This document shows positions 10,481-48,305 of a stretch of 64,000 nt of DNA, piece by piece. A program made the translations under genes and the position numbers. The stretch is from Endozoicomonas sp. OPT23 (GTDB lineage: Bacteria > Pseudomonadota > Gammaproteobacteria > Pseudomonadales > Endozoicomonadaceae): positions 434,001 through 498,000 of the forward strand of contig NZ_PPFD01000006.1 in the NCBI RefSeq assembly GCF_009653635.1, read 5' to 3'. The stretch's first letter is position 1. The number at the start of each line of letters is the position of its first letter. The notes under the pieces were generated by a model. The model saw only the letters and a list, made by a program, of their open reading frames with translations, was not told the origin of the DNA and did not search any database.

Positions 10481-10529
10481 GGTATTTCCTGTAAATCGGT
10501 CATTCAGCAAGAAATCTGCTGGATGCCGG

Positions 10530-18389: not shown

Positions 18390-21029
18390 TCAGTCTTCCT
18401 GAGACTCTTCAGAATCATCTTTTGCTTCTGCAGGGGCTTCATTCGAAGCCTGGGTTTCACCTTCAGAATCAGATTCTTCATCATCAAACTCAGGCTGTTC
18501 CTCAGGCTCTTCAACTCGAGCTACACCGACCAATTTCTCACCTTCCTGAACCTTGATCAGAGTCACACCCTGAGTATTACGGCTCATGACGGAGATCTCG
18601 TCGATACGGGTACGAACCAGAGTACCCTGATCAGAAATCAGCATGACTTCTTCGCCATCCTGCACCTGAATAGAGCCGACCAGATCACCGTTACGTTCAG
18701 TACACTGCATGGAGATCACACCCTGACCACCACGACCGGTGATACGGAAATCATCAACATTGGTGCGCTTACCAAAGCCGTGTTCACTGACGGTAAGAAT
18801 CGTCGCTTCATCTTCAGGAATGATCAGCGAGATTACCTGCTGACCTTCGTGCAGCCTCATACCACGAACACCGCGTGCGGTACGGCCCATGGCACGAACA
18901 TCACCCTCTTCAAAGCGAATTGCCTTACCGGCATTGGACAACAGCATTACCTGCTCGTCACCCTTGGTAATCGCAGCACCGACCAGCTGATCACCCTCAT
19001 CCAGACCCAGTGCGATCAAGCCGCTACTGCGCGGACGGGAGAACTGCTCCAGAGGTGTTTTCTTCACAGTACCCTTCTGGGTCGCCATGAAGACAAAGTG
19101 ACCTTCGGTGTACTCTTCTACCGGCAACATGGCCGTAATACTCTCATCTTCTTCCAACGGCAGAATATTAACAATCGGTCGGCCACGGGATGTACGGCCC
19201 GCTACTGGAATCTGGTAAACCTTCAACCAGTAAACCTTACCGCGACTGGAGAACAACAGAATTTGGGTATGGGTATTAGCCACCAGCATGTGTTCAACAT
19301 AATCTTCATCTTTTACCGACGCGGCAGACTTACCACGACCACCACGACGCTGAGCCTGATAAGTATCAAGCGTTGTTGTCTTGGCATAACCACCATGAGA
19401 CAAGGTGACTACCATGTCCTCTTCGGTAATCAAATCTTCAACGGTCAAATCAAGACGGGAGCTGATGATTTCAGTACGGCGCTCATCGCCGTATTCCTCA
19501 ACCACACTTTCAAGCTCTTCACGGATGATTTCAAGCAACCGCTCGGAACTGGCAAGGATATGCAACAACTCAGCAATTCTCTCGATCAATTCGCGATATT
19601 CGCTGAGCAGCTTGTCGTGCTCAAGACCCGTCAAACGATGCAGACGCATCTCCAGAATGGCCTGAGCCTGAGCGGGTGACAGATAGTACTTACCATCACG
19701 CAGACCATATTCTTCAGGTAACTCGTCAGGGCGACAGGCATCAGCACCGGCACGCTCAGCCATATCCATTACATAGCCCGGCTCCCAGCCCTGCGCCATC
19801 AGTTTTTCTTTGGCTTCAGTAGGCGATGGAGAAGCCTTGATCAAAGTAATAACAGGATCAATATTGGAGAGCGCTACAGCCAAGCCTTCCAACAAGTGGC
19901 CACGCTCACGAGCTTTACGCAGCTCATAAACGGTTCTGCGTGTGACCACTTCACGGCGATGACGAATAAAGGCTTCCAGCATTTCTTTCAGATTGAAAAG
20001 CTTGGGCTGGCCATCCAGCAGTGCCACATTATTAATACCAAACACGGTTTGCAATTGTGTCTGGGCATACAGGTTGTTCAGAACAACATCAGCAACCTCA
20101 CCACGACGGAGCTCGATCACCACTCGCATGCCATCCTTGTCGGACTCATCACGAAGCTCAGTGATACCCTCAATCTTCTTATCCTTAACCAGCTCGGCAA
20201 TCTTTTCGATCAAGCGCGCCTTGTTTACCTGGTAAGGTAATTCATGGATAAGAATGGTGCTCTTGTTTTTCTTATCGTCGTGCTCAATTTCTACACGAGC
20301 ACGAACATATATACGACCACGACCTGTGCGGTAAGCCTGCAATATTCCAGCACGGCCATTAATAATGCCCGCTGTCGGAAAGTCCGGACCCGGAATGTAT
20401 TCCATCAGATCATCGATGGTCAGATTTTCATCATCAATGAGCGCCAGACAGCCTTTCACGACTTCAGTCAGGTTATGCGGAGGTATGTTTGTCGCCATAC
20501 CTACGGCAATACCAGCCGCACCATTCACCAGCAAATTGGGAACACGAGTCGGCATAACCGCCGGAATTTGTTCGGTACCGTCGTAGTTTGGAACGTAGTC
20601 AACGGTTTCCTTATCCAGATCAGCCATAATATCGTGACTGATTTTGCGCATACGGATCTCCGTATAACGCATGGCCGCTGCAGAGTCACCATCCACAGAA
20701 CCAAAGTTACCCTGACCATCGACCAGCATATATCTCAGGGAGAAAGGTTGCGCCATACGTACGATAGTGTCGTATACAGCGGAGTCACCGTGAGGGTGGT
20801 ATTTACCAATGACATCACCGACAACACGTGCCGATTTTTTGTAAGGCTTGTTCCAGTCATTATTCAGAACATTCATGGCAAAGAGCACACGCCGGTGCAC
20901 CGGCTTGAGCCCGTCGCGAACATCGGGCAGTGCCCGCCCGACAATGACGCTCATTGCGTAGTCCAGATAGGACTGCTTGAGTTCGTCCTCAATATTTACC
21001 GGGAGAATTTCTTTGGCGATATCAGTCAT
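18390..21029 (-). CDS. gyrA: DNA gyrase subunit A
   Basis: Subunit A cuts and rejoins DNA and wraps it for negative supercoiling. The catalytic Tyr122 lies in [10 protein letters not shown]. The quinolone region has Ser83 and Asp87 ([12 protein letters not shown]), the drug-susceptible residues in E. coli numbering. The GyrA box QRRGGRGKS is present in the C-terminal beta-pinwheel. The last 50 or so residues are strongly acidic. Its 879 residues are normal. AAGGA stands about 12 bases before the start. Confidence 0.98.
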
Positions 21030-21521
21030 GTAAACCCAGTTGTCCTTTAGCTTGCGCCTGCCGAATCCCTGTCAACAGATCAGGGAAATTCGAAAAGGCC
21101 GGAAATCTGAATGCTAAAAATATAGAACCATCGTCTTAAAAGATCAGGTTCAAATTGCTGTTAGCAAACGCTCTGCACTCTCATGTCCAGAGTAGAGCTC
21201 AGAAACCGGCAGCCACCCCGACATCCGGCGGTTGATCCGCAGCCAGCTGGCCGGCAACAATTCAAATTCAATAAGGGAGAAATAATACCACAGTAAGGAC
21301 AGACACTGCGAGTAACTCAAGCCTTGAAAAGAACAAAGACTGACCAGTATCAGAAACTCTCTATCAACAGCCTTAAAATGACAAAAAACACCCGCACATA
21401 ATCGGGTTATTAACCGTGCAATACTGCATGTCACTACGGCAATGGGTATAATTCCGGGAATATGACAGGGCGGCTTGATTTTTACCGTCCGGGACTCACC
21501 ATCTTTGAGAACAGAGACTCT
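21030..21521. promoter_or_regulatory. Divergent gyrA / ubiG promoter region
   Basis: No gene is supported in these 492 bases. On the plus strand a perfect -10 TATAAT lies at 21447-21452, with only a poor -35. It predicts a start near 21459, so ubiG translation should begin at 21522 rather than at the in-frame ATG 21462. I see no strong gyrA promoter by eye. Confidence 0.4.
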
Positions 21522-22259
21522 ATGACCTCCCAACCGGAATCCGAAAAAACGGTTCATAACGTTGATCCGGCGGAAATCGCCAAGTTCGAAGAACTCGCCA
21601 GCAAGTGGTGGGATCGTGACGGTGAATTCAAACCTCTGCATGAAATCAACCCGCTGCGCCTGAACTTTATTGATGAGCGCGTGGGACTTGCAGGCAAGAA
21701 AGTTCTTGATGTTGGCTGCGGCGGCGGCATTCTCAGCGAATCCATGGCACTGCGCGGTGCTGATGTTACTGGCATCGATATGGGTGAAGCTCCGCTCTCT
21801 GTTGCCCGCCTGCACAGTCTGGAAAGTGAAGTAGAAGTAAACTACCGTCGTATTCCGGTAGAAGAGCTGGCGGAAGAAATGCCAGGCCAGTTTGATGTGG
21901 TGACCTGCCTGGAAATGCTGGAGCACGTCCCTGACCCGGAGTCCGTAGTTCGCGCCTGCAACAAGCTTCTGAAACCCGGCGGCCAGATTTTCTTCGCCAC
22001 CATTAACCGCAACAAAAAGTCCTGGCTGTTTGCCATCGTTGGCGCAGAGTACGTGCTGAAAATGCTGCCAAAAGGCACCCACGACCACAGCAAGTTCATT
22101 AAACCAAGTGAACTCTGCAACTGGATGCGCAAATCCGAACTGGCAGTACACGACATGACCGGCATGGTGTTTAACCCTCTGACCGGCGTCTATAAACTCA
22201 ACAAGAATGACACTGACGTTAACTATCTGATTTACGGCAGCAAGCCGGAACAGGCATGA
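21522..22259 (+). CDS. ubiG: Ubiquinone O-methyltransferase
   Basis: UbiG performs both O-methylations in ubiquinone synthesis. The 245-residue sequence shows [21 protein letters not shown], typical of UbiG, and SAM motif [10 protein letters not shown], then [12 protein letters not shown]. An in-frame ATG at 21462 is rejected because it nearly coincides with the predicted transcript start. The stop overlaps the next start (ATGA, 22256-22259), so ubiG is coupled to the phosphatase gene as in Pseudomonas. Confidence 0.96.
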
Positions 22260-27985: not shown

Positions 27986-28999
27986 ATGACGAAGAAAATC
28001 TACGTTATTTACACCGGTGGCACTATTGGTATGCGCCCGACCGACTCCGGCTACGCTCCTTCCGGAAATATGATGGCACTACTGGAAGAAAAACTGCCAG
28101 AGCATGTACAGGCCGAGTTACCTGACTTTGATCTGGTTGAATATGAGCAACTGATTGACTCCAGTAACATTCGACCGGACAACTGGAAACAGATTGCCAC
28201 TGACATTGCTGATCACTATGACCAGTATGATGGTTTTGTCGTCCTTCACGGCACCGACACCATGGCCTATTCCAGCTCCATGATCTCCTTCATGCTGAGA
28301 AACCTGGATAAACCCGTTATTTTTACCGGCTCCCAGATTCCCCTGTGCGAAGCTCGTACCGATGGTCTTGAAAACTTTGTTGGTGCACTGACACTGGCGG
28401 CCGACGAACGCATTAAGGAAGTCTGTCTCTATTTTAATGGCCGACTGATGCGCGGCAACCGTGCCCGTAAACAGAACGCTTATCTGTTTGACGCCTTCGA
28501 TTCACCAAACTTCCCATGGCTGGGTCGAGCCGATATCAATATCGAGCTGAGCGAGTATCTGCTGCTGAAACCGTCACAAAAGCCGGAATTTATGCTGGAC
28601 TGCGACTCCAACAGCAATGTTGCTATCCTTCAGCTCTTCCCCGGCATCACCGCTGATTTTGTCGAAGCGACACTAAACCAACCATTTAAAGCCTTTATCA
28701 TGAGAACCTACGGCACAGGCAATGGCCCGGACGGTGATCAGGCCCTTCTGGACGCACTGAAGAAAGCCACAGATTCCGGCAAAATCATTGTCAATCTGAC
28801 CCAATGCCATCGCGGCACAGTTCATCAGGGCAGCTATGCGGCTGGCTCTGCTTTAGCCAATGCCGGTGTTATTGGCGGGCTGGATACCACCACAGAAGCC
28901 ATGTTCTGCAAGCTTCATCATTTACTGTCATGCGGTAAAACACCTGAGCAGGTCACAGCACAGATCAGCATTGACCTTGCTGGTGAAATATCTCTCTGA
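27986..28999 (+). CDS. ansA: L-asparaginase I
   Basis: Cytoplasmic enzyme cleaving asparagine to aspartate and ammonia. The 337-residue protein starts MTKKIYVIYTGGTIGM (first catalytic Thr in TGGTIG) and carries VLHGTDTMAYSSSM with the second Thr and the Asp of the active site. E. coli AnsA has 338 residues. A frame extension to 27950 overlaps the preceding terminator and is rejected. GAGAG lies before the ATG. No signal peptide, so it is type I and not the periplasmic AnsB. Confidence 0.95.
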   Translation: MTKKIYVIYTGGTIGMRPTDSGYAPSGNMMALLEEKLPEHVQAELPDFDLVEYEQLIDSSNIRPDNWKQIATDIADHYDQYDGFVVLHGTDTMAYSSSMISFMLRNLDKPVIFTGSQIPLCEARTDGLENFVGALTLAADERIKEVCLYFNGRLMRGNRARKQNAYLFDAFDSPNFPWLGRADINIELSEYLLLKPSQKPEFMLDCDSNSNVAILQLFPGITADFVEATLNQPFKAFIMRTYGTGNGPDGDQALLDALKKATDSGKIIVNLTQCHRGTVHQGSYAAGSALANAGVIGGLDTTTEAMFCKLHHLLSCGKTPEQVTAQISIDLAGEISL

Positions 29000-29054: not shown

Positions 29055-29188
29055 AACCCTGTCTTTTACTCTCATTAAAAGAACACACGACATTACGACT
29101 TTATCGACTAGGCTTGAACCAGCTTCGATTCTGAAGCATGCGAATAACCTTCTCTCGTAATCACCTATTCACTGTCGTGGAGTTGCCA

Positions 29189-29743
29189 ATGAGAGCTTTA
29201 GTCATTGTTTTATCTACCCTGCTGCTTAGTGCCTGTAACTCAATGCAAACCAGCTGGGATTTCAACCCTGTCGTCGATTTCAGCAAATATCACACCTACG
29301 CATGGGTCAACAAGCGAACGGTTAATAAAGCAGAAGCATTCGAAAGCCTCTCTTCTGGTAGAGTTCATTCCACTGTAGACACAAACCTCACCGAAAAGGG
29401 GTTAAAGATTACCTCAAAAAAATCAGCACAACTGCTGGTTAATTACCTGACTGAAACAGATAAAAAGCTGGATATTGAAACTTTCAACACCGGTTTTGGT
29501 TACGCTCCCTATCTGGGGCCTGACTGGTGGTGGAATGAACCCCAGACAACCACCAGCGTACATGAATACAAAGAACGCATTTTTATTCTGGATTTGATTG
29601 ATGCCAAAACAAAAAAAATAGTTTGGCGTGGCACATTAAAAGAACCTCGAAAAGAAGGACAAACACCGGAACAGCGTTGGGCGGATATTGAAAAGGAAGT
29701 AAAAGAACTTTTAAAAGACTACCCTCCAAAACCTAAGAACTAA
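29189..29743 (+). CDS. DUF4136-like lipoprotein
   Basis: A 184-residue lipoprotein: signal MRALVIVLSTLLLSAC with lipobox LLSAC. The start of the mature domain is DFNPVVDFSKYHTYAWV, a hallmark of DUF4136. A later YKERIFILDLIDAKTKKIVWRG strand pattern, a basic stretch and a C-terminal helix follow. The function of the family is unknown. ATG 29189 has GGAG at 29179-29182; an in-frame ATG at 29138 would add residues before the signal peptide and is rejected. Confidence 0.85.
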   Translation: MRALVIVLSTLLLSACNSMQTSWDFNPVVDFSKYHTYAWVNKRTVNKAEAFESLSSGRVHSTVDTNLTEKGLKITSKKSAQLLVNYLTETDKKLDIETFNTGFGYAPYLGPDWWWNEPQTTTSVHEYKERIFILDLIDAKTKKIVWRGTLKEPRKEGQTPEQRWADIEKEVKELLKDYPPKPKN

Positions 29744-29760
29744 TCACTGCAAACCCTAAA

Positions 29761-29787
29761 AGAGAAGAGCTCGCTCTCTTCTCTTTT
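29761..29787 (+). terminator. Terminator of the DUF4136 gene
   Basis: AGAGAAGAG / CTCTTCTCT with a six-base loop followed by TTTT. Confidence 0.75.
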
Positions 29788-29853
29788 ATTAAAACAATAA
29801 AATTTTTTAAAATACCGACTTCGTTAACTTCAAGGCTTTAACCATCCCTGACT

Positions 29854-29872
29854 TTAACCTGATTCAGGTTAA
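29854..29872. promoter_or_regulatory. 19-bp perfect palindrome before collagen-like gene 1
   Basis: TTAACCTGA-T-TCAGGTTAA is fully symmetric around one base. It ends 93 bases before the start codon and just before an A+T-rich stretch (TATATAAAA). This is the form of a dimeric repressor or activator site; the regulator is unknown. Confidence 0.5.
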
Positions 29873-29965
29873 TTGCACTTTATATAAAAAACTGCAAACA
29901 AATACATATTCACATTTACATCTATACTGCTTTTCTTCCTTTTAATTATTTGATTTGGAGAGAAA

Positions 29966-31804
29966 ATGAAAAGCAGGAGTAAGCTGCTGTCCGCTGCAGC
30001 TATTGCCGCCTATTTACAGGCATCGTTTGTTTTCGCCGTGTTTACAAAAATAGCCGACCCAAATAAGCCACTCGGGGAGTATCACATATCAACGCAAGGC
30101 CAACATACTATAACAGGCACAGAGCACACCCTGAATCAGGTAGTTGTGGTTGAGAGTAGTGATGCCATTCTTTTTAATGGTATTCACATCACTCTTGATC
30201 AATTACTAACCATCAACGAGCCTCAAGATCAAGCGACCGCCGCACCAGAACAGTTCATCATCACGCACGATCAGCTGATTACCTTTCACAATCATCATGC
30301 TCAAGGGCCTACTCAACAAATAGCAGCACTTACCCCTCCACCTCCAGTAATACCAATTCCATCCCCACCCGCAGGTACACCTACCCAACAACAGGCTCCA
30401 CTTAATAATCCGCTACATCAGACGCTCACCGACCACCTGGGTCAAACAATCACTGAAGATTTGATACAAACAGTACTAGAACCATTTGGAAACAATGCAT
30501 ACATTGGAATGTCGACCGGTTCTGGTGGTTATTTTTCTGCTCCAATCAGGCTAGTAACCTATCAAGGCCCTCCTGGCAAAAACGGAGCTCCAGGCGTGGC
30601 AGGTCCGCAAGGTCAACCAGGCAGGGAAGGTCAGCGAGGCAATTCAGGCCCTAAAGGTGATAAAGGTGATAAAGGCGATCAAGGCTCCAAAGGTGGGCAG
30701 GGCAAACAAGGTCCTAAAGGCGACCAGGGTCTTAAAGGTGATCAAGGCAGGCAAGGTGATAAAGGCTATCAAGGCGACAAAGGTGATACAGGCGATAAAG
30801 GTGATACAGGCGATAAAGGTGATAAAGGCAGAAAAGGCGATACAGGTGCTCAAGGATTACAAGGTATTCCCGGCAAGTCGGCTGGATGGCTGACCGGCTA
30901 TATACCACCTATTATCACAGTCACCGCATACCATTTCCGAAATGAAATCGCAGGCAATGCACAAGACTTTTACGACCAGAAAATTATGCCACTAGTCGGC
31001 TGGTTGTTTCCCCCTAAAGGCGAAGAAACAGATGAAAAATCAGGCAGCTCGGAATGCCGACAGCTTCAGCATGAAGCGCTTTCGGAAGCCTGCCTTGAGC
31101 TAAGAAGACAAGACAAAATAACATCCGACCTGTATCAGTTCATATCAGATATAGACAGCGTTGAAGAGTCTCAACTATTCCTATCGCTGTTCAATCTGGA
31201 AGAATTAATCGAAACAGAAGAGGCTGAAAAATGGCAGGTTGTTGATATGGCAGCCCTGAACACCACTGCAATGAATTCTCAGTCGTTTAGATTGACTACA
31301 AAACAGCCTCCAACAAGCTTTGACTCCATAGGAGCGCGCTTACTCTCTTTCATTATCTTACAAGCCTATGACCGCTCAATCCTTATAAGCACCCTTGGCA
31401 CCTACATACCCTCTGAAGCTGAAACAAGCTGGGTTCACAGCACTCGCTGGCAACTCTTGTCTTTTGCTCTGTATTGGATAAATATGGATGAGAATGACAA
31501 AAACATATTGAACGCTCAGTTCCAGAAAGATTCCCCCTCTCAACCTCTTGACATACTCTGGCAGAAAAAAGTTATTGAGCATTTTTACGAGCCCAAATGC
31601 AAAAAATCGTCTTCAGTTGCAATTTATCTCGACGAAAACAAGCACCCCGACTGCATACCGGACCAGGAAGAAGATCATACAGGCCAAGATACTGAACAGC
31701 GTGATGGTGAGGAAGATGAAACAGTCCTGGATTCAAATGAACGACAGAATAATAATCTGAACGAGCCTCCAGAGGAGCAACAAACCGATAATACTGCCGC
31801 TTAA
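29966..31804 (+). CDS. Secreted collagen-like protein 1
   Basis: A 612-residue exported protein with a signal peptide (about 1-24). Residues 25-95 form a beta-rich domain shared with the next gene (PLGEYHIS...LDQLLTINEPQDQ). Residues 100-200 are Pro/Gln-rich. Residues 201-304 are 34 Gly-X-Y triplets plus a partial one, mostly GDK, GDT, GPK and GDQ, able to form a charged triple helix. The C-terminal domain (305 to about 560) carries GWLF, a C-x11-C pair and a second cysteine pair ending HPDC, then an acidic tail. Bacterial collagen-like proteins act in adhesion, biofilm or host contact; the role here is unknown. GGAGAG precedes the ATG. Confidence 0.85.
   Translation: MKSRSKLLSAAAIAAYLQASFVFAVFTKIADPNKPLGEYHISTQGQHTITGTEHTLNQVVVVESSDAILFNGIHITLDQLLTINEPQDQATAAPEQFIITHDQLITFHNHHAQGPTQQIAALTPPPPVIPIPSPPAGTPTQQQAPLNNPLHQTLTDHLGQTITEDLIQTVLEPFGNNAYIGMSTGSGGYFSAPIRLVTYQGPPGKNGAPGVAGPQGQPGREGQRGNSGPKGDKGDKGDQGSKGGQGKQGPKGDQGLKGDQGRQGDKGYQGDKGDTGDKGDTGDKGDKGRKGDTGAQGLQGIPGKSAGWLTGYIPPIITVTAYHFRNEIAGNAQDFYDQKIMPLVGWLFPPKGEETDEKSGSSECRQLQHEALSEACLELRRQDKITSDLYQFISDIDSVEESQLFLSLFNLEELIETEEAEKWQVVDMAALNTTAMNSQSFRLTTKQPPTSFDSIGARLLSFIILQAYDRSILISTLGTYIPSEAETSWVHSTRWQLLSFALYWINMDENDKNILNAQFQKDSPSQPLDILWQKKVIEHFYEPKCKKSSSVAIYLDENKHPDCIPDQEEDHTGQDTEQRDGEEDETVLDSNERQNNNLNEPPEEQQTDNTAA
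30566..30877 (+). repeat. Gly-X-Y coding repeat of collagen-like gene 1
   Basis: A 312-base tract built from 9- and 18-base units (GGTGATAAA, GGCGATAAAGGTGATACA). Near-identical units make it prone to slippage and length change. Confidence 0.9.
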
Positions 31805-31822
31805 GAATACCTTCGCTCTCGA

Positions 31823-31862
31823 CTGTCATGATCTTTCTTCAGGATCGGTCATGACAGCTTTC
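31823..31862 (+). terminator. Stem-loop after collagen-like gene 1
   Basis: CTGTCATGA (31823-31831) and TCATGACAG (31849-31857) pair perfectly, with an inner GATC/GATC pairing, followed by CTTTCCC. A weak intrinsic terminator. Confidence 0.55.
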
Positions 31863-32151
31863 CCACCTGATCGTAAATGTAAATACTCAAAAAAAACATT
31901 AAAATATTTTTCACTACTTATTTTATTTCATACATTAATAAAATCTCAACGTAATGCATTCATATTCACAATCACCATTAAGAGATCGTTACTTTACCCA
32001 TTAAATCCTACTAATTGCCTGTAACTTCCTTATTTTAAATTGACAAGCCATTCCGAATTCAGATTTCAATACATGTATTAGTGAATCACCATTCATATAA
32101 ATAGAACCTATACTCGTGGCCTGTCAAAAATGAATCATTGAGGAGTAGTCA
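31863..32151 (+). promoter_or_regulatory. A+T-rich leader of collagen-like gene 2
   Basis: No gene is seen. A consensus -35 TTGACA is at 32040-32045 with no good -10 at 17 bases; TATAAA is at 32096-32101 with no good -35. The palindrome ATACATGTAT lies at 32069-32078. The promoter is probably activator-dependent. The palindrome found before gene 1 is absent. Confidence 0.35.
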
Positions 32152-34230
32152 ATGAAAACATCCTTGAGATGGCTTTCTTTTCTTGCCTGTTTCTATATTG
32201 GGTCTTCAGTAGCAGACATCACGCTAAAGAAGGATGAAAACGTGCCTATAGGCTCTATAAGAGTCAGTAAAATGGAGAACACCGTATACGCGCATCCCGA
32301 CTCACTGACGCACGTGGAAATTTCTCAGGAAAATACTGAAGCTGTAACTATAGGAACACACAATTTTTCTATTCAGGATTTAATCTCCATTGCCAACCCG
32401 CAAGATCAAACTTCAAACCTTATAAATGAAGCCGTCATCGAAATTATCAGCATAACTCCTCAAGCACTCGAGACTGCTACAGCCTCACAACCACCTCACC
32501 TTAATTTACCACCAGCCAGCACAAGACCTCTTGACTCCATAGCTGGCTCACAGGGTGGAGCACTAAACCCTGTCCCCGGACCAGCAGGAGCAAAAGGTGA
32601 GCGTGGAGATAAAGGTGAGCCAGGAGATAGGGGGCGAGAGGGCAAAAGGGGCCAGCCGGGACATGAGGGTCAGAAAGGCGCTCAAGGAGAAAGAGGTAAG
32701 AGAGGCACAACCGGATCTGAAGGTGACCCTGGAGCCACGGGGGAAAGAGGGGACAAAGGACCTCAGGGAGACCAAGGCGACCCTGGAAAACGCGGCCCTA
32801 CAGGAAACCCCGGACCTGATGGGAAGAAGGGTTTGCCAGGTGATAAAGGCACAGAGGGTGGCATTGGCCCTGACGGCCCTCAAGGCCCTCCTGGCACACA
32901 GGGCGCTGAAGGTGATGTCGGAAAACCCGGAGAACAAGGCGAACCTGGCGACAGAGGCCAACCCGGAGAACAGGGTGAACCTGGAGACAAAGGCCAGCCC
33001 GGAGAGCAAGGTCAACCTGGAGACAAAGGCCAGCCCGGAGAGCAAGGTCAACCTGGAGACAAAGGCCAGCCCGGAGAGCAAGGCCAATCTGGAGACAAAG
33101 GCCAGCCCGGAGAGCAAGGCCAATCTGGAGACAAAGGTGAGCCCGGAGAACAAGGTCAACCTGGAGACAAAGGTGAGCTTGGGGACAAAGGCCCTCAAGG
33201 CGACCAGGGAAACCCTCTCTATACCTACAGTAAAATTGCCGGAATGGTGGCAGTTACTGAAGCCATCATTCACTCACCCTCTTACTGGGATTCTGTTAAA
33301 AGTCATTTCAACCGTGCGAAAGGCTGGCTTTTCGGTGATGGAAAAACAACTGAAAAAAGCCATGAATTAGACACTCTATGCCCCAACTCACTGTCTGAAA
33401 AATTTCTACACGCTTGCCATTCAATAGCACAATCCCCGAACATTACTGATATAGATTTAGCTATTGAAATCCTATACAGACTTCAGGTTTTTTCTGGTCA
33501 TTACTCTCTGGAAATTCCAGTACTGACCCTACAAGTAATGCTTGACTCCGATGAACTTGAGGATAGCTGGAAAACCTTAGAAGCCAGTCAGTTTGACTGG
33601 CTTAATGAAAGCTATGTCACAGGTGCAAGACTGATTCAAAGTTCAACCTTTAAACTTGATGAACTGGACGCCAATCAACTCTCAGCCGCGTTGCTTGATG
33701 TCGCAGCAATAACTAATTCCGATGCAAATTTAATGAGAGCATTTACTGAGAAAAAATCCAACAATTGGCTTAAGAGCCCCGATTACCAACTGCTTGGCTT
33801 TAACAGGTTCTGGAAAGCGTTATCCGAGCTTCAACAAGCCCAACTCAATGCTGCGCTCTCACCAGGCGAAGCCATGCTGTTTCAAAAGTCCCTTCAACAA
33901 CTCACTGGTCAGATACTCTGCCCTGACAATACAGCAGACATGATGGACAGCATTTTCAGTATTGATTTACTGAGCTCACCACCTGATTGTGCATTCCAGG
34001 AACAGCCAGAAGAGGCACTATATACAGAAGAACATACAGAAAAACCGAGTGAAGACGAACCGGAAGTGAGAACCAAAGAAAAGTCTGATGATTCAGAACA
34101 TCCGACGCCAACCCTGGAGACAAAAGAAATCGATACAGCAAGCAACTCTACTGCAACTTCAGAGCCAACTGCAGAGACAGAGCTTGTAGGCAATACCACC
34201 AATAGCTCCGAAGCCACTAAACCGGAATAG
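32152..34230 (+). CDS. Secreted collagen-like protein 2
   Basis: A 692-residue paralogue of the preceding protein. Signal peptide 1-21; N-terminal domain with PIGSIRVS...IQDLISIANPQDQ, alignable with protein 1. Residues 143-355 are 71 uninterrupted Gly-X-Y triplets, starting GPAGAKGER and ending GDQGNP, including seven 12-residue units of the type GEQGQPGDKGQP. The C-terminal domain repeats GWLF, a C-x11-C pair (LCPNSL...HAC), a YQLLGFNRFW segment like YQLLSF-type WQLLSFALYW in protein 1, and a last pair ending PPDC. A Glu/Thr/Ser-rich tail follows. AGGAG precedes the ATG. Probably a surface or secreted trimer. Confidence 0.87.
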   Translation: MKTSLRWLSFLACFYIGSSVADITLKKDENVPIGSIRVSKMENTVYAHPDSLTHVEISQENTEAVTIGTHNFSIQDLISIANPQDQTSNLINEAVIEIISITPQALETATASQPPHLNLPPASTRPLDSIAGSQGGALNPVPGPAGAKGERGDKGEPGDRGREGKRGQPGHEGQKGAQGERGKRGTTGSEGDPGATGERGDKGPQGDQGDPGKRGPTGNPGPDGKKGLPGDKGTEGGIGPDGPQGPPGTQGAEGDVGKPGEQGEPGDRGQPGEQGEPGDKGQPGEQGQPGDKGQPGEQGQPGDKGQPGEQGQSGDKGQPGEQGQSGDKGEPGEQGQPGDKGELGDKGPQGDQGNPLYTYSKIAGMVAVTEAIIHSPSYWDSVKSHFNRAKGWLFGDGKTTEKSHELDTLCPNSLSEKFLHACHSIAQSPNITDIDLAIEILYRLQVFSGHYSLEIPVLTLQVMLDSDELEDSWKTLEASQFDWLNESYVTGARLIQSSTFKLDELDANQLSAALLDVAAITNSDANLMRAFTEKKSNNWLKSPDYQLLGFNRFWKALSELQQAQLNAALSPGEAMLFQKSLQQLTGQILCPDNTADMMDSIFSIDLLSSPPDCAFQEQPEEALYTEEHTEKPSEDEPEVRTKEKSDDSEHPTPTLETKEIDTASNSTATSEPTAETELVGNTTNSSEATKPE
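32929..33180 (+). repeat. Seven 36-bp tandem repeats in collagen-like gene 2
   Basis: Seven in-frame 36-base units encode GEQG-xx-GD-x-G-xx. The middle copies differ by one or two bases, indicating recent unit duplication or conversion. Confidence 0.9.
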
Positions 34231-34247
34231 TCAACATAACACCGGAA

Positions 34248-34280
34248 AAAGGAAAAGCTCTAATCAGCTTTTCCTTTCTT
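34248..34280. terminator. Bidirectional terminator (collagen-like gene 2 / ung)
   Basis: AAAGGAAAAGCT and AGCTTTTCCTTT form a perfect 12-bp stem with a six-base loop, between convergent stops at 34230 and 34286. Confidence 0.8.
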
Positions 34281-34285
34281 ACCGG

Positions 34286-34975
34286 CTAACTTTCTATTTC
34301 AGGCAGTTGCCAATCAATAGGTGCAAGACCTCGAGACTCTAAATAGTGATTTGTTTGAGAAAAAGGCTTACTACCAAAAAAACCACGATGCGCCGACAGA
34401 GGAGAAGGGTGAACTGCTTTCAAGACCAAGTGTCGTGTATGATCGATAAAACTGCCTTTTCGTTGTGCATAACTGCCCCAGAGAATAAACACTAGCCCTT
34501 CCCGCTTGGCGTTCAACTCATGAATCACCTTATCGGTGAACTGCTCCCAACCTCTTTTCTGGTGAGATGCGGCTTGCTTATGCTCCACTGTCAAAACACT
34601 GTTCAATAACAGCACTCCCTGTTTCGCCCAGCTTTCCAGACAACCGTGACTGGCCGGAGGAATACCCAGATCTGCATTCAACTCCTTATACATATTGACC
34701 AGTGAAGGTGGTGTGCGAACATCCGGCCTGACTGAAAAGCAGAGACCATGAGCCTGACCCGGCCCATGGTAAGGGTCCTGCCCCAGAACAACCACCTTCA
34801 CCTGATCAAAGGGTGTCAGCTCCATCGCCCGAAAATACTCTGAACCTTTCGGATAAATAACCTTCCCGGCCTCTCTCTCATTTAACAGAAAGGCTCGCAG
34901 ATTCTGCATGTACTCTTTATTAAACTCTTCCTGAAGGTGAGATTTCCAGGAAGGCTCCAAACGAACATCAGGCAT
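34286..34975 (-). CDS. ung: Uracil-DNA glycosylase
   Basis: Removes uracil from DNA to start base-excision repair. The 229 residues hold the water-activating loop [36 protein letters not shown], and the leucine loop [11 protein letters not shown]. Length matches E. coli Ung (229). A single gene facing the collagen-like gene. Confidence 0.97.
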
Positions 34976-38820: not shown

Positions 38821-39110
38821 GGCTCTCGCTCAGTGATGTACGCACTCACCCGGCGACCGGGTTTCGATCGTGGGTAAGTGATTGTTGAATAATCAAATAA
38901 AGGAAAAAATCAGCCGGGTATTGTAACTGATCGCCTCTGCCGTTGGAATGTCTGTCGAGCAACCCGCATCACTGATTATCAGCAGGGTTCAGGCATGAAG
39001 AGTTCACTAAGACTTAATGGAACTCTTGAGCAACAGACTGGTCAGAGCTTTCATAATCTAGTGCGACCTGCAGAGCACGCTATATAAGAAAAACCAAGAG
39101 GTGATTACCT

Positions 39111-39344
39111 GTGAAAAGGAAACTACTAATAGCCCTGTCTTTGATATCAACGTTGCAACTTTGTAGCCAGATTACTCTGGCTGATGATCAGGAGTTCTCA
39201 CTACCCAGTGAGGATTTCGAACACACCACATACCCTGATAACAAACAGTATCAGGCCTATGACGATGAATCAGAAGAAGATCAAACTGAAAGTGATGACG
39301 AGCTTCCTTCAAGTGATTATCAGTTTGATATCACTGAAAATTGA
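39111..39344 (+). CDS. Small acidic secreted protein
   Basis: A 77-residue product of unknown family. It has a signal peptide (MKRKLLIALSLISTLQLCSQ, cleavage probably after TLA at about 24). The mature part is very acidic (DDESEEDQTESDDE) with no basic patch or cysteine. It starts at GTG 39111 with AGAGGTG upstream. It precedes another secreted protein gene by about 190 bases and may be transcribed with it. A real but unassigned gene is likely; the short length keeps confidence moderate. Confidence 0.55.
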   Translation: MKRKLLIALSLISTLQLCSQITLADDQEFSLPSEDFEHTTYPDNKQYQAYDDESEEDQTESDDELPSSDYQFDITEN

Positions 39345-39535
39345 TATCATTCTGCAACAACAATTTCGTGCCTAAAGTCTTATCGGTCAGGGTGAATCAG
39401 TCACAACTGATAGACTCCAAACTGATTCAAACTAATTTTCACTTATTTCTGGCAATTACACATTCGTCTGCCAAACTTTTTCTGCTCTCACAAGGTTATT
39501 TTTCATTCACCTTTAAACAGCAGTTTACTCATATC

Positions 39536-40561
39536 ATGTCTTTTTTCAGACCACGTATTTGCTCTATCGCCCTACTTCTGATCACTCAAATCCTTCAGGC
39601 AAATGAGATTTTATGCCCAGCAAAGGTTGCATACGATGACTCTGGCGATTTCAGAACATTCTCCGCTGACCTCACCCCAAACATGCCACCGTCATGGCAA
39701 AAACTGTCAGGTAAAGTTGATATTCAGTCAAAAATAGACCTCTCTTCTGTTGAATTTTCATCGGCAACCCTGAACACGTTCAATCATCACTTTGAGTGCA
39801 GTTATACCCTTATCGATCCTGTCAGCAGCGAAACAGTTACCCTGACCCTTACGCCATTCATCCCAGACGTAAACAATCGACCCAATCTCAACTACCCACT
39901 ACAAATAACTGGAAACCACTGGCAACAGAAAAAAATTCTTACCAAACCGAACATTGAAATTATTGGTGAAGGTGCCTCTATTAGTGGGGGAGAATATTTA
40001 AGACCCGTACCAGATACCCAAACCTGCCTTTCTGATCGCTTAGAATGCAAAGTTACCATCCCAACGATTAGCTTGTATTCGAGCTTCAGAGTAAGACAAA
40101 CACAGACATCCGGGTCTGATGATACGAGCAATCCCAGAATATGGTTAAACAACCTGAACTCCATAACGGAAGATCCGCATCACATCACGGCCAGCGGTGA
40201 GGGCTACACCTTTATTCATGACGACTCCACAGCAACGATCACTCCAGTGACATCTCTTCTATTAGATATTCCCGGCCAAGGCGATCGAAACCTGTTCAAT
40301 TACACTGTTGAAGAAAGAACGACCCACTTCCATCTGATTCACGATATAGACAGTGGCGTTTTTTCTCTGACAACAGGAAAACGGGGGGAATTTTACTGTT
40401 CTGACGAAAACATCAGAAGAATATCTACACAATCACAGTACACAGTTATTGAAGTATTTCTTGAGACTCCGCTACAGGACGGACTGGTCTATTGCTCAGT
40501 GTTTGGCGACCAATCTTCACCTATCGCCAGTCAACAAGTCGAACCGAAAGATGAACTTTAG
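39536..40561 (+). CDS. Secreted beta-rich protein of unknown function
   Basis: A 341-residue protein I cannot place in a family. Signal peptide at about 1-22 (RICSIALLLITQILQANE). The mature start ILCPAKVAYDDSGDF followed by a W and alternating strands slightly resembles DUF3757 proteins, but this is only an impression. Several cysteines (LCP, ECSY, TCLSDRLEC, YCSDE, VYCSV) suggest disulfides. A longer frame runs back to 39341. ATG 39536 is chosen because it places the signal peptide at the N-terminus, though no good ribosome site is visible. Confidence 0.65.
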   Translation: MSFFRPRICSIALLLITQILQANEILCPAKVAYDDSGDFRTFSADLTPNMPPSWQKLSGKVDIQSKIDLSSVEFSSATLNTFNHHFECSYTLIDPVSSETVTLTLTPFIPDVNNRPNLNYPLQITGNHWQQKKILTKPNIEIIGEGASISGGEYLRPVPDTQTCLSDRLECKVTIPTISLYSSFRVRQTQTSGSDDTSNPRIWLNNLNSITEDPHHITASGEGYTFIHDDSTATITPVTSLLLDIPGQGDRNLFNYTVEERTTHFHLIHDIDSGVFSLTTGKRGEFYCSDENIRRISTQSQYTVIEVFLETPLQDGLVYCSVFGDQSSPIASQQVEPKDEL

Positions 40562-40568
40562 GCGCTTT

Positions 40569-40609
40569 AGCCTCCCCCACCAGAATAGGCAGAGGAGGCT
40601 TGATCTTTA
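40569..40609. terminator. Convergent terminator (secreted protein / dinG)
   Basis: AGCCTCC (40569-40575) and GGAGGCT (40594-40600), followed by a TGATCTTT run on the plus strand. Confidence 0.55.
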
Positions 40610-40619
40610 AAACAACCTA

Positions 40620-42797
40620 CTACAAAACAGCGTACTCAATATTACGTCGAAACGGCGGCAGGGAATCAAGAATCATACGACCGTAGCGAGCCGTTACGAC
40701 TCTTCTGTCCAGTAACGTTATTTTACCTATGTCCTGCTCGGTACGAAGCAGACGACCACAGGCCTGCACCAGTTTAATCGCAGCATCTGGCACGGTAATT
40801 TCCATAAACGGATTTCGCCCCTGAGCTTCCAGCCAATCCGACAAGGCTGATTCCACAGGATCATCCGGTACCGAGAAAGGAATTTTAGCGATGACTACAT
40901 GCTCACAATATTCACCCGGTAAATCGATACCTTCTGCCAGACTGGCAAGACCAAACAACACACTGACTTTGCCGTCATCAATGTTCTTCTTATGAAGTTT
41001 CAATAGCTCTTGACGGGAGTAGTCATCCTGTAGAAGAACCTTTTTACGCCAACTGTTATCAAGTCCATAAAAGACATCGTTCATCTGCTTACGGGAAGAG
41101 AACAAAACCAGTGTTCCCCGCTGACTTTCCATCAGCCCCGGCATAATTTCGATCAACTCTTCCGTATGCTCTTCACTCTGCCTGGGTTCAGATAACATAT
41201 CCGGCACCACCAACTGTGCCGCCAACTGATGCTGAAACGGGCTTGGCACAACAATGGTTTTTGACTCGGATGGCACACCGGAGCGCATTCGGAAACGGTT
41301 AAAACTGCCAAGAGCCGTTAACGTTGCCGAAGTCACAATAGAGGCATAGCCGGGATTCCAGAGAGTCTGCCACAAGGTAGAAGACGACAGTATGGGACTA
41401 CTGAACACTTCCAGCTCTTCACCAAAAGGACCTTCCGACCACTTCAGCCAGCGAGCGCTGGGCGGCTCACCTTCCGGGTCAGGGTGCGTATACGTCAGCC
41501 AGAGCTGAAACTGGTTTTCCAGCCGCATCTGCATGGCGCCGATTTCCGGATAGAGTTGTTCTGCCTGCCAGCGATCAATACCGGGGACACCTCCATCCAT
41601 GGCATCGTTTAACTCTTTAGCCACCTTTTCCAGCATGCCACTGCTTTTACTGAAGCCTGCTTTCAGGATTTCAGCTTGCTGCCGCACTTCGTCAGGCACT
41701 ATGCCTTCAGGGAAACGATGAACCGCCACCTGCATATCACCCTGCATTCGAGGCTCAAAAGTAGCGAGGGAATGTAGCATGGTGCGGGTATGACCCAGAT
41801 GATTAACCAGATCATCAAACTCCGGCATCAGCTTTTCCAACTGCTCACCCAGATCACCCGGCAAGGCATTCTGTCCCAGGGTTTTCTGAAGATATTTACT
41901 GCCCTTCTCCAGCCAGCTGGCCGTACCTTTTAGACGACCATGACAGGCAAAGTGATCTATCGCTTTATCAGGAAGGTGATGACCTTCGTCAAAGACAAAA
42001 ATACAGTCTTTAGGGTCGGGAAGAATAGCGCCACCACCCAGGGCCAGGTCAGCCAGCACTAGATCGTGATTGGTGACAATCACATCCGCGCTTTCCAGAT
42101 CGCCACGGGCTTTATAGAAAGGACACTGACTGAAATAGCCACAACGGCGACCACTGCATTGAGCATGATCGGTTGTAATCATTCGCCACTGTTGATCTTC
42201 CAGCGCATCGGGCCAGCTGTCTCGATCACCTTTCCATTTAGAAGATGCAAAATCTTCCAGCATAGTCTGATAAAGCTTGAGCGACGATTCGTCCTGCTCA
42301 AGGGAATAACCTTCAGCAGCAAACATATCCATCAACGACGCGGTTGACTGTTCTTCCTGCAGCACTCTGTCCAGCTTGCTGACACAGGCATAACGTCCTC
42401 TGCCTTTGGCAAGAGTAAAAGAGAACTTTAAGCCGGATTTCAGAATCACATCGGGCAGATCCTTACTGATGATCTGTTCCTGCAAGGTTACCGTGGCCGT
42501 TGAAATGACCAGACGTTTTTTCGACGCCTGCGCCATCACCACCGCAGGGATGACATAGCCTACGGTTTTGCCGGTACCGGTACCGGCTTCGATCACTGAC
42601 ACAGCTGGGTCGGATATGCGCCGGCCTTCACCGTCAGCCTTGATCTCACCCAGAGCACGGGCAATTTCGGCAATCATCTGCTTCTGGCCAGGTCGGGCTT
42701 TCAGCTTTTTACTGGTCAGAAAGGTGCTGTACGCTTTCTGAATCGCTTTCTTTTGTGGCTCTTCAAGCACGCTTGTTATTACCTGATTGGTTACCAC
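40620..42797 (-). CDS. dinG: ATP-dependent DNA helicase DinG
   Basis: A 5'-3' iron-sulfur superfamily 2 helicase that removes R-loops and helps replication past transcription. Walker A is EAGTGTGKT. Four cysteines of the cluster lie in GRYACVSK, CSGRRC and SQCPF. The DEAH box appears as FDEGHHL. The later motif ACGRLLRTEQD is present. The 725-residue reading begins at GTG 42797 and overlaps the DUF1145 gene by 35 bases. GTG 42770 (VLEEPQKK) would reduce the overlap to 8 bases and fit the E. coli N-terminus better. No LexA box is seen. Confidence 0.95.
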   Translation of the reverse strand: MVTNQVITSVLEEPQKKAIQKAYSTFLTSKKLKARPGQKQMIAEIARALGEIKADGEGRRISDPAVSVIEAGTGTGKTVGYVIPAVVMAQASKKRLVISTATVTLQEQIISKDLPDVILKSGLKFSFTLAKGRGRYACVSKLDRVLQEEQSTASLMDMFAAEGYSLEQDESSLKLYQTMLEDFASSKWKGDRDSWPDALEDQQWRMITTDHAQCSGRRCGYFSQCPFYKARGDLESADVIVTNHDLVLADLALGGGAILPDPKDCIFVFDEGHHLPDKAIDHFACHGRLKGTASWLEKGSKYLQKTLGQNALPGDLGEQLEKLMPEFDDLVNHLGHTRTMLHSLATFEPRMQGDMQVAVHRFPEGIVPDEVRQQAEILKAGFSKSSGMLEKVAKELNDAMDGGVPGIDRWQAEQLYPEIGAMQMRLENQFQLWLTYTHPDPEGEPPSARWLKWSEGPFGEELEVFSSPILSSSTLWQTLWNPGYASIVTSATLTALGSFNRFRMRSGVPSESKTIVVPSPFQHQLAAQLVVPDMLSEPRQSEEHTEELIEIMPGLMESQRGTLVLFSSRKQMNDVFYGLDNSWRKKVLLQDDYSRQELLKLHKKNIDDGKVSVLFGLASLAEGIDLPGEYCEHVVIAKIPFSVPDDPVESALSDWLEAQGRNPFMEITVPDAAIKLVQACGRLLRTEQDIGKITLLDRRVVTARYGRMILDSLPPFRRNIEYAVL

Positions 42798-43132: not shown

Positions 43133-43630
43133 ATGACTATTGATACTTTATCTTTTGAAAAGACTTCCTCCTGTCCCTGTGGCTCTGGTAACACCTATAT
43201 AGACTGTTGCGATCGATACCATAATCAGGGTTTACTGCCCGAGACTGCCGAGCAGCTGATGCGCTCGCGTTTTTGTGCGTATTATCTGAAGAACAACGAC
43301 TACCTGATTGAAACCACCTGGCCACGACAGCATGAGGCGATGAGACAGGAAAGGCTCCATCAGCAGGAAGACAATACCCGCTGGTCGAAACTCGACATTT
43401 TGTCGACAGTTGCCGGTAAAGAGGGCGACACCAAGGGCAAGGTTGAATTTAAAGCCTGGTTTATCAACCCTGCCAGCGGCAATGAAGAACCTTATCACGA
43501 GAACTCTGACTTTATTCGTGAGAGTGGGAGCTGGTATTTCATCTATCCAAACCTGGCAGCAAAACCACCTGCCCGTAATGATCCATGCCTTTGCGGCAGT
43601 GGTAAGAAATTTAAAAAGTGTTGTATATAA
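43133..43630 (+). CDS. ychJ: YchJ-family protein with two SEC-C metal motifs
   Basis: A 165-residue protein. The N-terminal SEC-C motif CPCGSGNTYIDCC (about 14-26) and C-terminal motif CLCGSGKKFKKCC each bind a zinc ion. Between them lies the NTF2-like YchJ domain (TAEQLMRSRFCAYYLKNNDYL...TWPR). SEC-C motifs are also found at the SecA end, where they contact SecB and ribosomes; the job of YchJ is not known. The start is set by the conserved N-terminal motif; the ribosome site is poor. Confidence 0.9.
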   Translation: MTIDTLSFEKTSSCPCGSGNTYIDCCDRYHNQGLLPETAEQLMRSRFCAYYLKNNDYLIETTWPRQHEAMRQERLHQQEDNTRWSKLDILSTVAGKEGDTKGKVEFKAWFINPASGNEEPYHENSDFIRESGSWYFIYPNLAAKPPARNDPCLCGSGKKFKKCCI

Positions 43631-43819
43631 ATGTAGATGCGGGGTCAGTGTTGGCCTTGCTTTACCCGAACCTGAAAATCATAAAACAGGACTACTGTCA
43701 CAAATATCGTTATTGACTGGAAAAGCCCCTTAAACTCCCAATTTCCTCCTGTAGACTTTCTGCATGATCAGTGGCCTTTAAGATAAGCAGCAAGGCCTGG
43801 AGCTTAAGGAAAAACAATA

Positions 43820-46603: not shown

Positions 46604-46619
46604 TAAATAAAACCAGAGC

Positions 46620-46653
46620 ACGGGGTTAACCGCTGTTCTGCTGCTAACCCCGT
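46620..46653 (+). terminator. Stem-loop after the metalloprotease gene
   Basis: ACGGGGTTA and TAACCCCGT form a perfect 9-bp stem with a 16-base loop, 17 bases after the stop; there is no T tract. Confidence 0.5.
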
Positions 46654-47272
46654 AGCACATAGCACAACCCTCTACACTTTAAATGAATTGAACACACCAT
46701 TTATTATTGGCATCATCATGAACTGTTTACAGCTCATCCAGACCCCGAATAAACTGATATAAAAATTTGGAAAGAGTAACCAAATACCTAATCAAAACGG
46801 CTATAAAACAACTCAACTTTTAAACCATTTTTTTTGTTTTTAAACTGAAATCATCTCCATACATTAAATAATGTCCTGGCTCTATTTCTCCCATCCCTTC
46901 CCCTAATTCTAAAATCAAAAAATGATTGAGGAAGATATACAGGGACTGTTTTCAACATCTGTTTACAGCTTGCAAGAGTAGAAAAAAAATCTCAGCAACC
47001 CCCTATTTACAAGATTATTTCCTGATAGCTAGTAATTTACCGCAGCCGCTATTGATATCCATCAATCATCCACTGTATAAATACTGTAATAATTAAAAGG
47101 AATTAGTGGTTTACACATCAAAACCATCCAGTATATGACCATTGTCATATATCAGGACTGATACCTAAGCTCCGAGTTGTACAGAGAGCAATCAAAATAG
47201 CCAGCAGAACCCGGGCATGGAGTCGCAGAGGAGCTGAACTGGCAGAGCAATTAACCATAAAGGGGACATTAA
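46654..47272 (+). promoter_or_regulatory. Long leader with FNR/ANR class II promoter of the TRAP genes
   Basis: There is no gene in these 619 A+T-rich bases. TTGAT-ATCC-ATCAA (47052-47065) is a perfect FNR/ANR box. For a centre at -41.5 the -10 hexamer should be 47088-47093, which reads AATAAT (5 of 6). The predicted start at about 47100 leaves a 173-base leader ending in AAGGGGA before the ATG. Confidence 0.65.
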
Positions 47273-48253
47273 ATGTCGGTTTTTAAAAAACTGGGTATGA
47301 CTATTGCCGGCGCAAGCCTGGCTGTTGCTGCATCTACCGCTGGCGCGGCTACACAGCAATTCGTAACCATTGGTACCGGTGGTGTTACCGGTGTTTATTA
47401 CCCTACTGGCGGCGCTATCTGTAAGCTGGTGAACAAATCCCGTAAAGAACACGGCATCCGTTGCTCTGTAGAAAGCACCGGTGGTTCTGTTTACAACCTG
47501 AACACCATCCGTGGCGGTGAGCTGGACATGGGTATTGTTCAGTCTGACTGGCAGTTCCACGCTGTAAACGGCACCAGCAAGTTTGAAAATCAGGGCGCTA
47601 ACAAAAACCTGCGCGCAGTATTCTCTGTGCACCCTGAAGCCTTCACTGTTCTGGCTCGTAAAGATTCCGGCATCAAAAACTTTGCTGACCTGAAAGGCAA
47701 GCGCGTCAACATCGGTAACCCTGGTTCCGGTCAGCGTGGCACTATGGAAGACCTGATGGCTGCTTACGGCTGGGACAAGAAGTCTTTCTCCCTGACTTCC
47801 GAACTGAAGTCCGCTGAACAAGCAAAAGCTCTGTGTGACAACAAGATTGATGCCTTCGTATTCACTGCCGGCCACCCAAGCGGCTCCCTGAAAGAAGCAA
47901 CTTCTTCCTGTGACACCACTCTGGTTAACGTAACCGGCCCGATTGTTGAGAAGCTGATTAACGACACGCCTTACTACCGCTCCGCTACCATTCCTGGTGG
48001 CATGTACACAGGTAACAAGGCTGATACCACCACCTTCGGTGTTGCGGCTACTTTCGTATCCTCTTCCGAGATCAGCGACAAAGCTGTGTACGAAATCACC
48101 AAGTCTGTATTTGAAAATCTGAACACCTTCAAGAAGCTGCACCCTGCGTTCGGCACCCTGAAGAAAGAAGAGATGATTGCTGACGGTCTGTCTGCTCCTC
48201 TGCACGAAGGCGCCAAGAAGTACTACCTCGAAGCCGGCCTTCTGGCTAAGTAA
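47273..48253 (+). CDS. TAXI-family TRAP transporter solute-binding protein
   Basis: Periplasmic receptor of 326 residues with a signal peptide (1-25, ending AGA). It shows [19 protein letters not shown], the TAXI binding-site signature, and [16 protein letters not shown] and [14 protein letters not shown]. It delivers a solute, often glutamate or another carboxylate, to the fused permease encoded next. Codon use is strongly biased toward frequent codons, suggesting high expression. AAGGGGA precedes the ATG, and the promoter has an FNR box. Confidence 0.93.
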
Positions 48254-48305
48254 GCACGATCCTGCCCAAGGCGATGCGGGGTACCTCATCGCCACAAGCA
48301 TGAAG

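Follow-up and report, generated by a model that had tools for sequence, protein, structure and literature searches.

The window analysed here is the whole 64,000-nt stretch of DNA from Endozoicomonas sp. OPT23, which is described as coming from the sponge Ophlitaspongia papilla (PMC6955870). Positions are those of the window unless another locus is named. Two adjacent genes, called CLP-A and CLP-B after the collagen-like proteins (CLPs) that they encode, lie in the same direction with a spacing of 347 bp. The first-pass annotation had placed tandem genes here, and both open reading frames (ORFs) proved to be intact (Table 1). The only clear relative found for the two CLPs is a single gene that Oceanospirillales bacterium Hp36, a sponge isolate from Halichondria (PMC6955870), carries at this locus. 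Comparison of the two loci suggests, beyond what the annotation had claimed, that the locus may be an allele exchanged between related species.

Table 1. Features of the CLP locus of OPT23 and its flanks.
Feature	Position	Strand	Remarks
ansA (asparaginase)	27986..28999	+	outer left anchor of ansA-ung interval
DUF4136 gene, left flank	29138..29743	+	lipoprotein-like by eye
Putative replaced core, DUF4136 3′ end to ung 3′ end	29639..34352	.	breakpoint analysis
CLP-A gene	29966..31804	+	intact ORF, 612 aa
CLP-A signal peptide	29966-30037	+	judged by eye
CLP-A N-domain and Pro-rich linker	30038-30565	+	
CLP-A Gly-X-Y tract	30566-30880	+	35 triplets, residues 201-305, 9 K-G-D
CLP-A four-Cys C-domain	30881-31660	+	helical in poor model
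CLP-A acidic tail	31661-31801	+	
CLP-B upstream region, ribosome-binding site, signal-peptide codons	32096..32207	+	86.6% to Hp36, 112 bp
CLP-B gene	32152..34230	+	intact ORF, 692 aa
CLP-B signal peptide	32152-32214	+	judged by eye
CLP-B N-domain and linker	32215-32577	+	
CLP-B Gly-X-Y tract	32578-33216	+	71 triplets, residues 143-355
36-bp tandem repeat in CLP-B	32926..33173	+	6.9 copies, 92% matches, 12-aa collagen unit
CLP-B four-Cys C-domain	33217-33996	+	helical in poor model
CLP-B acidic tail	33997-34227	+	
ung (uracil-DNA glycosylase), right flank	34286..34975	-	

The Gly-X-Y tracts are uninterrupted in both CLPs, and the next longest run in the six frames of the window has 3 triplets. 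The first-pass annotation had counted 34 and 71 triplets; the count for CLP-B was reproduced, and that for CLP-A is one too low. The collagen family PF01391 scored 59 bits on CLP-A (E 3.9e-16) and 121.8 bits on CLP-B (E 9.8e-36). With long uninterrupted tracts over the Pfam cut-off of 27.2, both belong to the collagen-like proteins. Besides its K-G-D triplets, the CLP-A tract has proline in 11% of the X and 11% of the Y positions; in the CLP-B tract proline takes 28% of the Y positions. A collagen triple helix rises 0.286 nm per residue, by which the predicted rods would be ~30 nm (CLP-A) and ~61 nm (CLP-B) long. The 36-bp repeat of CLP-B could vary in length from strain to strain.

The C-x11-C pair, later Cys pair, GWLF motif and acidic tail described in the first-pass annotation were found in both CLPs. 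The later pair is C-x17-C in CLP-A and C-x22-C in CLP-B. GWLF is absent from the Hp36 relative, which has a fifth Cys. Asp and Glu make up 27-36% of the acidic tails. The hydrophobic maximum of the signal peptide on the Kyte-Doolittle scale (KD) is 1.89 in CLP-A and 1.42 in CLP-B. Past residue 35, neither protein has a 17-residue stretch with mean KD >1.36, and neither contains LPXTG or a lipobox-like motif. Among 18 genes measured, the GC content at third codon positions (GC3) was lowest in CLP-B (0.391) and third lowest in CLP-A (0.395). A promoter scan gave 3 sites against a shuffle mean of 5.7, and a terminator scan gave 4 against 5.3.

The claim that these are duplicated, exported-looking proteins is borne out by the signal peptides (by eye) and by the homology of the flanking domains. 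In the profile test asked for by the first-pass annotation, profiles were built from CLP-B and the Hp36 relative, with collagen and tail left out, and scored against CLP-A. The N-domain reached 11.0 bits (E 2.4e-5) and the C-domain 21.1 bits (E 8.9e-9; both E values computed for one sequence), scores reached by 0/2000 shuffles each. On the same profiles, the top scores among 123 other ORFs of the window were 2.5 bits (N) and 5.3 bits (C). In pairwise comparison, the C-domain of CLP-A gave z 8.5-11.1 with CLP-B and z 7.9 with Hp36. The N-domains of CLP-A and CLP-B gave z 6.0 (score reached by 1/500 shuffles) and z 5.3 (0/300), and those of CLP-A and Hp36 gave z 1.1 (42/300). The case for N-domain homology is weaker than that for the C-domain. 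Overall, CLP-A and CLP-B are ~26% identical.

Outside the collagen part no Pfam or NCBIfam model passed its cut-off on the CLPs, in keeping with the uncharacterised family that had been proposed. The further proposal of the annotation, that the flanking domains trimerise or bind and may mimic host matrix, is conjectural. The C-domain had no match among PDB sequences, and the N-domain had a single meaningless one (E 0.97). AlphaFold2 models were built from a three-row alignment. The N-domain models are beta-rich with near-equal element order in CLP-A and CLP-B, and their blocks mostly have a predicted local distance difference test score (pLDDT) of 54-84; this agreement is not independent because the same rows stand in each alignment. 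Foldseek found no match to the CLP-A model at E <=0.001 (best 0.52).

ansA and ung lie close together in 9/9 genus neighbourhoods examined. CLP genes with a close DUF4136 gene occur in the ansA-ung interval of OPT23 and, among the nine, of Hp36 only (contig SIHQ01000020.1). In the remaining 8 genomes of the genus, the top DUF4136 matches have 30-33% identity. The Hp36 locus lacks CLP-A. A 632-bp IS66-like insert, which has inverted ends and duplicates 8 bp of its target (by eye), lies ~56 bp upstream of the CLP start in Hp36 (L021 14246-14877); its transposase fragment scored 22.9 bits against a Pfam cut-off of 23.1.

Synonymous divergence between OPT23 and Hp36 was compared over 36 genes, hand-picked from 61 window ORFs with a later start for ansA and with CLP-B left out. 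Two ORFs (21150-22151 and 47192-48301) with high fourfold and low protein identity were taken as wrong-strand and swapped for opposite-strand ORFs with Pfam matches. The median identity at fourfold sites was 0.479. The two highest values were those of the genes next to the CLPs: ung had 0.959 (rank 1/36; 98% amino acid identity to Hp36) and the DUF4136 gene 0.917 (rank 2/36; 96%). Outward from these flanks the identity drops to 0.73 (ansA), 0.67 and 0.65. Against 8 other genus genomes the fourfold identity of ung was 0.337-0.410, which shows no conservation of these sites across the genus. In 300-bp bins (173 in all, median 81.0%), identity exceeded 97% in three, each of them within or overlapping ung or the DUF4136 gene, and the next bins are at 48900 (96.7%), 9600 and 29400 (96.0% each).

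The core between the flanks is much older. CLP-B and the Hp36 protein are 44% identical in the N-domain and 37% in the C-domain; the number of substitutions per synonymous site (dS) is saturated in the N-domain and 1.36 in the C-domain, against 0.126 in the DUF4136 gene and 0.073 in ung. The change from flank to core is sharp. On the left, 7/500 mismatches are followed by 20/100 towards the CLPs (p 1.6e-11), and on the right 13/799 by 12/97 (p 2e-6). The mismatches are concentrated in the last ~105 bp of the DUF4136 gene and the last ~66 bp of ung. Within the core, CLP-B and its Hp36 counterpart are alike upstream of the gene and across the signal peptide, and the similarity is lost near the start of the mature protein.

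The simplest account suggested by these alignments is a recently shared ~6 kb segment in which a divergent allele has taken the place of the core; the crossovers would lie close to the 3′ end of each flanking gene. Loci of variable surface molecules can have such recent flanks around an old core. Hypermutation of the CLPs was considered and rejected, as their synonymous sites are saturated or old too. The same observation argues against fast protein change alone. An unlikely alternative is that one orthologue simply diverged fast, or that hidden paralogy was followed by differential loss, without recombinational replacement. As CLP-A is missing in Hp36, genes are gained or lost at this site, and CLP-B could be a different old paralogue from the one in Hp36. 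However, this alternative leaves unexplained the fourfold identity of 92-96% in both flanks against a median of 48%, and the sharp breakpoints within two unrelated genes.

We lean, with modest confidence, towards a reading in which CLP-A and CLP-B are exported collagen-stalk adhesins or antigens and the locus is an exchangeable allele whose core is replaced within shared flanks. The surface or secreted adhesin part of this reading draws on the signal peptide, the rod, the Cys pattern and the type II secretion system (T2SS) secretin model, which passed its cut-off three times in the OPT23 genome; the secretin was the sole T2SS part sought. The CLPs would be exported by Sec, and disulfides of the C-domain would form in the periplasm. 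Three chains may then wind into a rod, ~30 nm long in A and ~61 nm in B, which ion pairs and proline would stabilise, and be released through the T2SS. Carried on the rod, the two flanking domains would be presented to other cells or to a ligand of the sponge. By homologous recombination in the flanking genes, the CLP core could be swapped for a divergent version, and such replacement would point to selection on the mature protein, of a diversifying or frequency-dependent kind.

Several points weigh against this reading. Export and its route, the trimer, the surface location, ligand binding and selection are steps that we infer. At KD 1.42, the CLP-B signal peptide has a modest hydrophobic core, and the C-domain models are helical with a block mean pLDDT of 50 at most. 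The secretin model also matches 6/14 control genomes and is over cut-off in 2. The breakpoint windows were chosen after a coarser profile was seen. The left flank is a mosaic, with 8/300 mismatches at 28400-28700, 29/200 at 28700-28900 and few from 29100, and this suggests more than one event; fourfold identity there is 0.609 at 600-1000 bp and 0.873 at 1000-1500 bp. Other similarity peaks occur in the window (96.7% at 48900, 96.0% at 9600), and fourfold identity is 0.788 at 8801-10510 and 0.737 at 18390-21029. Two flank conversions that halted at a divergent core would give the same picture. The locus is in two genomes only, too few to settle the number and order of events. In the CLP C-domain the ratio of nonsynonymous to synonymous divergence (dN/dS) is below 1 (0.59/1.36), and therefore no positive selection is shown at codon level. 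The Hp36 allele may also be poorly expressed because the IS66-like insert sits upstream.

By the searches made here, the family is confined to two genomes. The N-domain profile and the CLP-B C-domain each had matches in 2/37 family genomes, namely OPT23 and Hp36. The CLP-A C-domain matched OPT23 and a second genome (G026). The G026 hits (L008-L010, E 1.1e-4 to 2.8e-3) have stops inside and were set aside as likely low-complexity matches; L008, the one inspected, has repetitive ORFs. A contig scan by two short peptide patterns, which divergent relatives may escape, found Hp36 as the sole relative. With the C-domain profile, OPT23 was the sole genome matched among 390 from the order and among 369 from the class; Hp36 is absent from both tallies and is probably outside these samples.

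Collagen tracts as such are more widespread, and PF01391 is present in 14/37 family genomes. Apart from the CLP locus and its Hp36 counterpart, matches lie on 19 contigs, of which 16 were read (all but G030:C40, G033:C138 and G033:C151). Their ORFs are tail-fibre-like, signal-peptide-free or simple repeats, or encode a protein of genome G023 that we call protein D. Two collagen-like proteins of another genus of the family (L056:2208-4142, 644 aa; L057:2536-4548, 670 aa) have no N-terminal signal peptide, and hydrophobic stretches flank their collagen part (by eye). Collagen tail-fibre-like proteins stand in phage-like neighbourhoods (by eye) in two relatives (L058:2180-3295, L060:2495-3418).

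Protein D (L061:1848-3770, complement) is a 640-aa orphan with a signal peptide (by eye), a collagen tract and a CLP-like layout. Its four Cys are spaced much as in the CLPs, with gaps of 15, 173 and 21, for which the chance is ~0.0009 with a range chosen post hoc. As a homologue it was set aside: shuffles reached its score on the profile of CLP-A, CLP-B and Hp36 in 2/2000 (N) and 221/2000 (C) cases, and on that of CLP-B and Hp36 in 97/2000 (N) and 39/2000 (C). Protein D shares the CLP layout, and homology is not established. None of the other 36 family genomes has a relative of its C-domain. When D was added to the N profile, one match besides its own genome appeared in the 390 order genomes (E 0.001), a zinc-finger-like protein by eye, which means that weak N-domain scores mislead.

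A phage origin, in which the CLPs would be prophage tail-fibre remnants with a collagen tract derived from a tail fibre, is highly improbable. PHROG tail-fibre families do match the CLP tract, and the relatives with L058 and L060 show that collagen tail-fibre-like genes in phage-like surroundings occur in the family. However, the best stretches shown (25/40 families for CLP-A, 25/34 for CLP-B) all overlap the Gly-X-Y tract, the CLPs have signal peptides (by eye), and their neighbours are chromosomal genes, not phage genes. The C-domain, unlike the N-domain, was searched in viral contigs, plasmids and phages and had no match there. Phages might act from outside instead: the CLPs could be phage receptors or decoys, with phage pressure driving the allele replacement. 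We give this little credence. Pressure from phages would account for allele replacement and presence/absence variation no less well than pressure from the host, but no phage or defence gene was recognised in a Pfam scan of the neighbours (PADLOC was not run).

Among known systems, Lcl of Legionella pneumophila and Pcl7 of Pasteuria may be the closest in working. Lcl is described as a T2SS-dependent, surface-located trimer that binds glycosaminoglycans (PMC11162425). Like the CLPs it has a signal sequence, a collagen rod and a C-terminal domain without wide sequence relatives, in a Gram-negative with a T2SS secretin, and the number of rod repeats differs between Lcl strains. The Lcl model NF046116 scored 69.1 and 86.1 bits on the collagen part of the CLPs against a cut-off of 500. 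The C-terminal domain of Lcl is reported to contain DUF1566 and no disulfides (PMC11162425), whereas the CLP C-domain has four Cys, no Pfam match and all-helical poor models; DUF1566 was not among the Pfam families matching the CLPs at E <=1. Lcl has an N-terminal helix, in contrast to the ~90-residue beta-rich N-domain of the CLPs.

Lcl is also reported to stimulate aggregation (PMC11162425), and in the same way the CLP rods might join bacteria or matrix polysaccharide as a scaffold for biofilm or self-aggregation, with diversification serving kin recognition and not host binding. The tails with 27-36% Asp and Glu would suit bridging by divalent cations. Such a scaffold seems unlikely to us, and the present data do not tell it from host adhesion.

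For Pasteuria ramosa, the C-terminus of Pcl7 is reported to mediate host-genotype-specific attachment (PMC10987987). Pasteuria resembles OPT23 in its adjacent CLP genes, in presence/absence variation and in transposases among structural variants, and divergence of its CLPs under host coevolution has been proposed (PMC10987987, PMC13233619). It differs as a parasite from the Bacillota that attaches by its spores, with 36-45 CLP genes per genome that arose mainly by duplication (PMC13233619); OPT23 has two CLP genes and a sign of between-species allele replacement. The two are likened by description, not by sequence. The streptococcal Scl1 and Scl2 share a collagen rod on a bacterial surface protein but are LPXTG-anchored, unlike the CLPs. 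The Scl models NF038330 and NF038329 scored 63.8-102.5 bits on the collagen part, with maxima of 102.5 against a cut-off of 400 and 97.3 against 325, respectively.

Symbionts of the genus Endozoicomonas are widespread in marine invertebrates, and to our knowledge their host-recognition molecules are largely unsettled. For OPT23, ankyrin, tetratricopeptide repeat (TPR) and Sel1 repeat proteins have been named as likely attachment factors (PMC6955870); the word "collagen" is absent from the main text of that paper. In a partial literature, only the Alvinella genome paper surfaced on collagen-like proteins in Endozoicomonas, and none on such proteins in sponge symbiont genomes. Recently shared flanks with an old divergent core point to a surface molecule kept variable by selection, and the two proteins are now shortlisted for testing host specificity in sponge symbiosis. 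We speculate, tentatively and with some doubt, that Endozoicomonas relatives associated with sponges exchange collagen-stalk alleles among themselves, with ung and the DUF4136 gene as the anchors of homologous recombination, and that the allele decides which sponge, tissue or immune receptor is engaged. If true, such a specificity locus would be a mutualist or commensal counterpart of the Pcl7 matching system of Pasteuria.

The ansA-ung slot looks variable across the genus because other genes occupy it in relatives. One relative has a 903-aa protein there with DUF6895 and APH matches (L022:2539-5250), and another has a 212-aa protein with a weak Peptidase_C58 match below cut-off (L026:3558-4196, E 0.003). 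Elsewhere in the window, two further stretches have no alignment to Hp36. The stretch 38954-40621 holds a 406-aa ORF (39341-40561) with no Pfam match at E <=1. The stretch 43630-47035 holds a 927-aa ORF (43820-46603, GC3 0.394) with four bacterial-Ig/cadherin-like repeats, which is a further candidate adhesin of the window.

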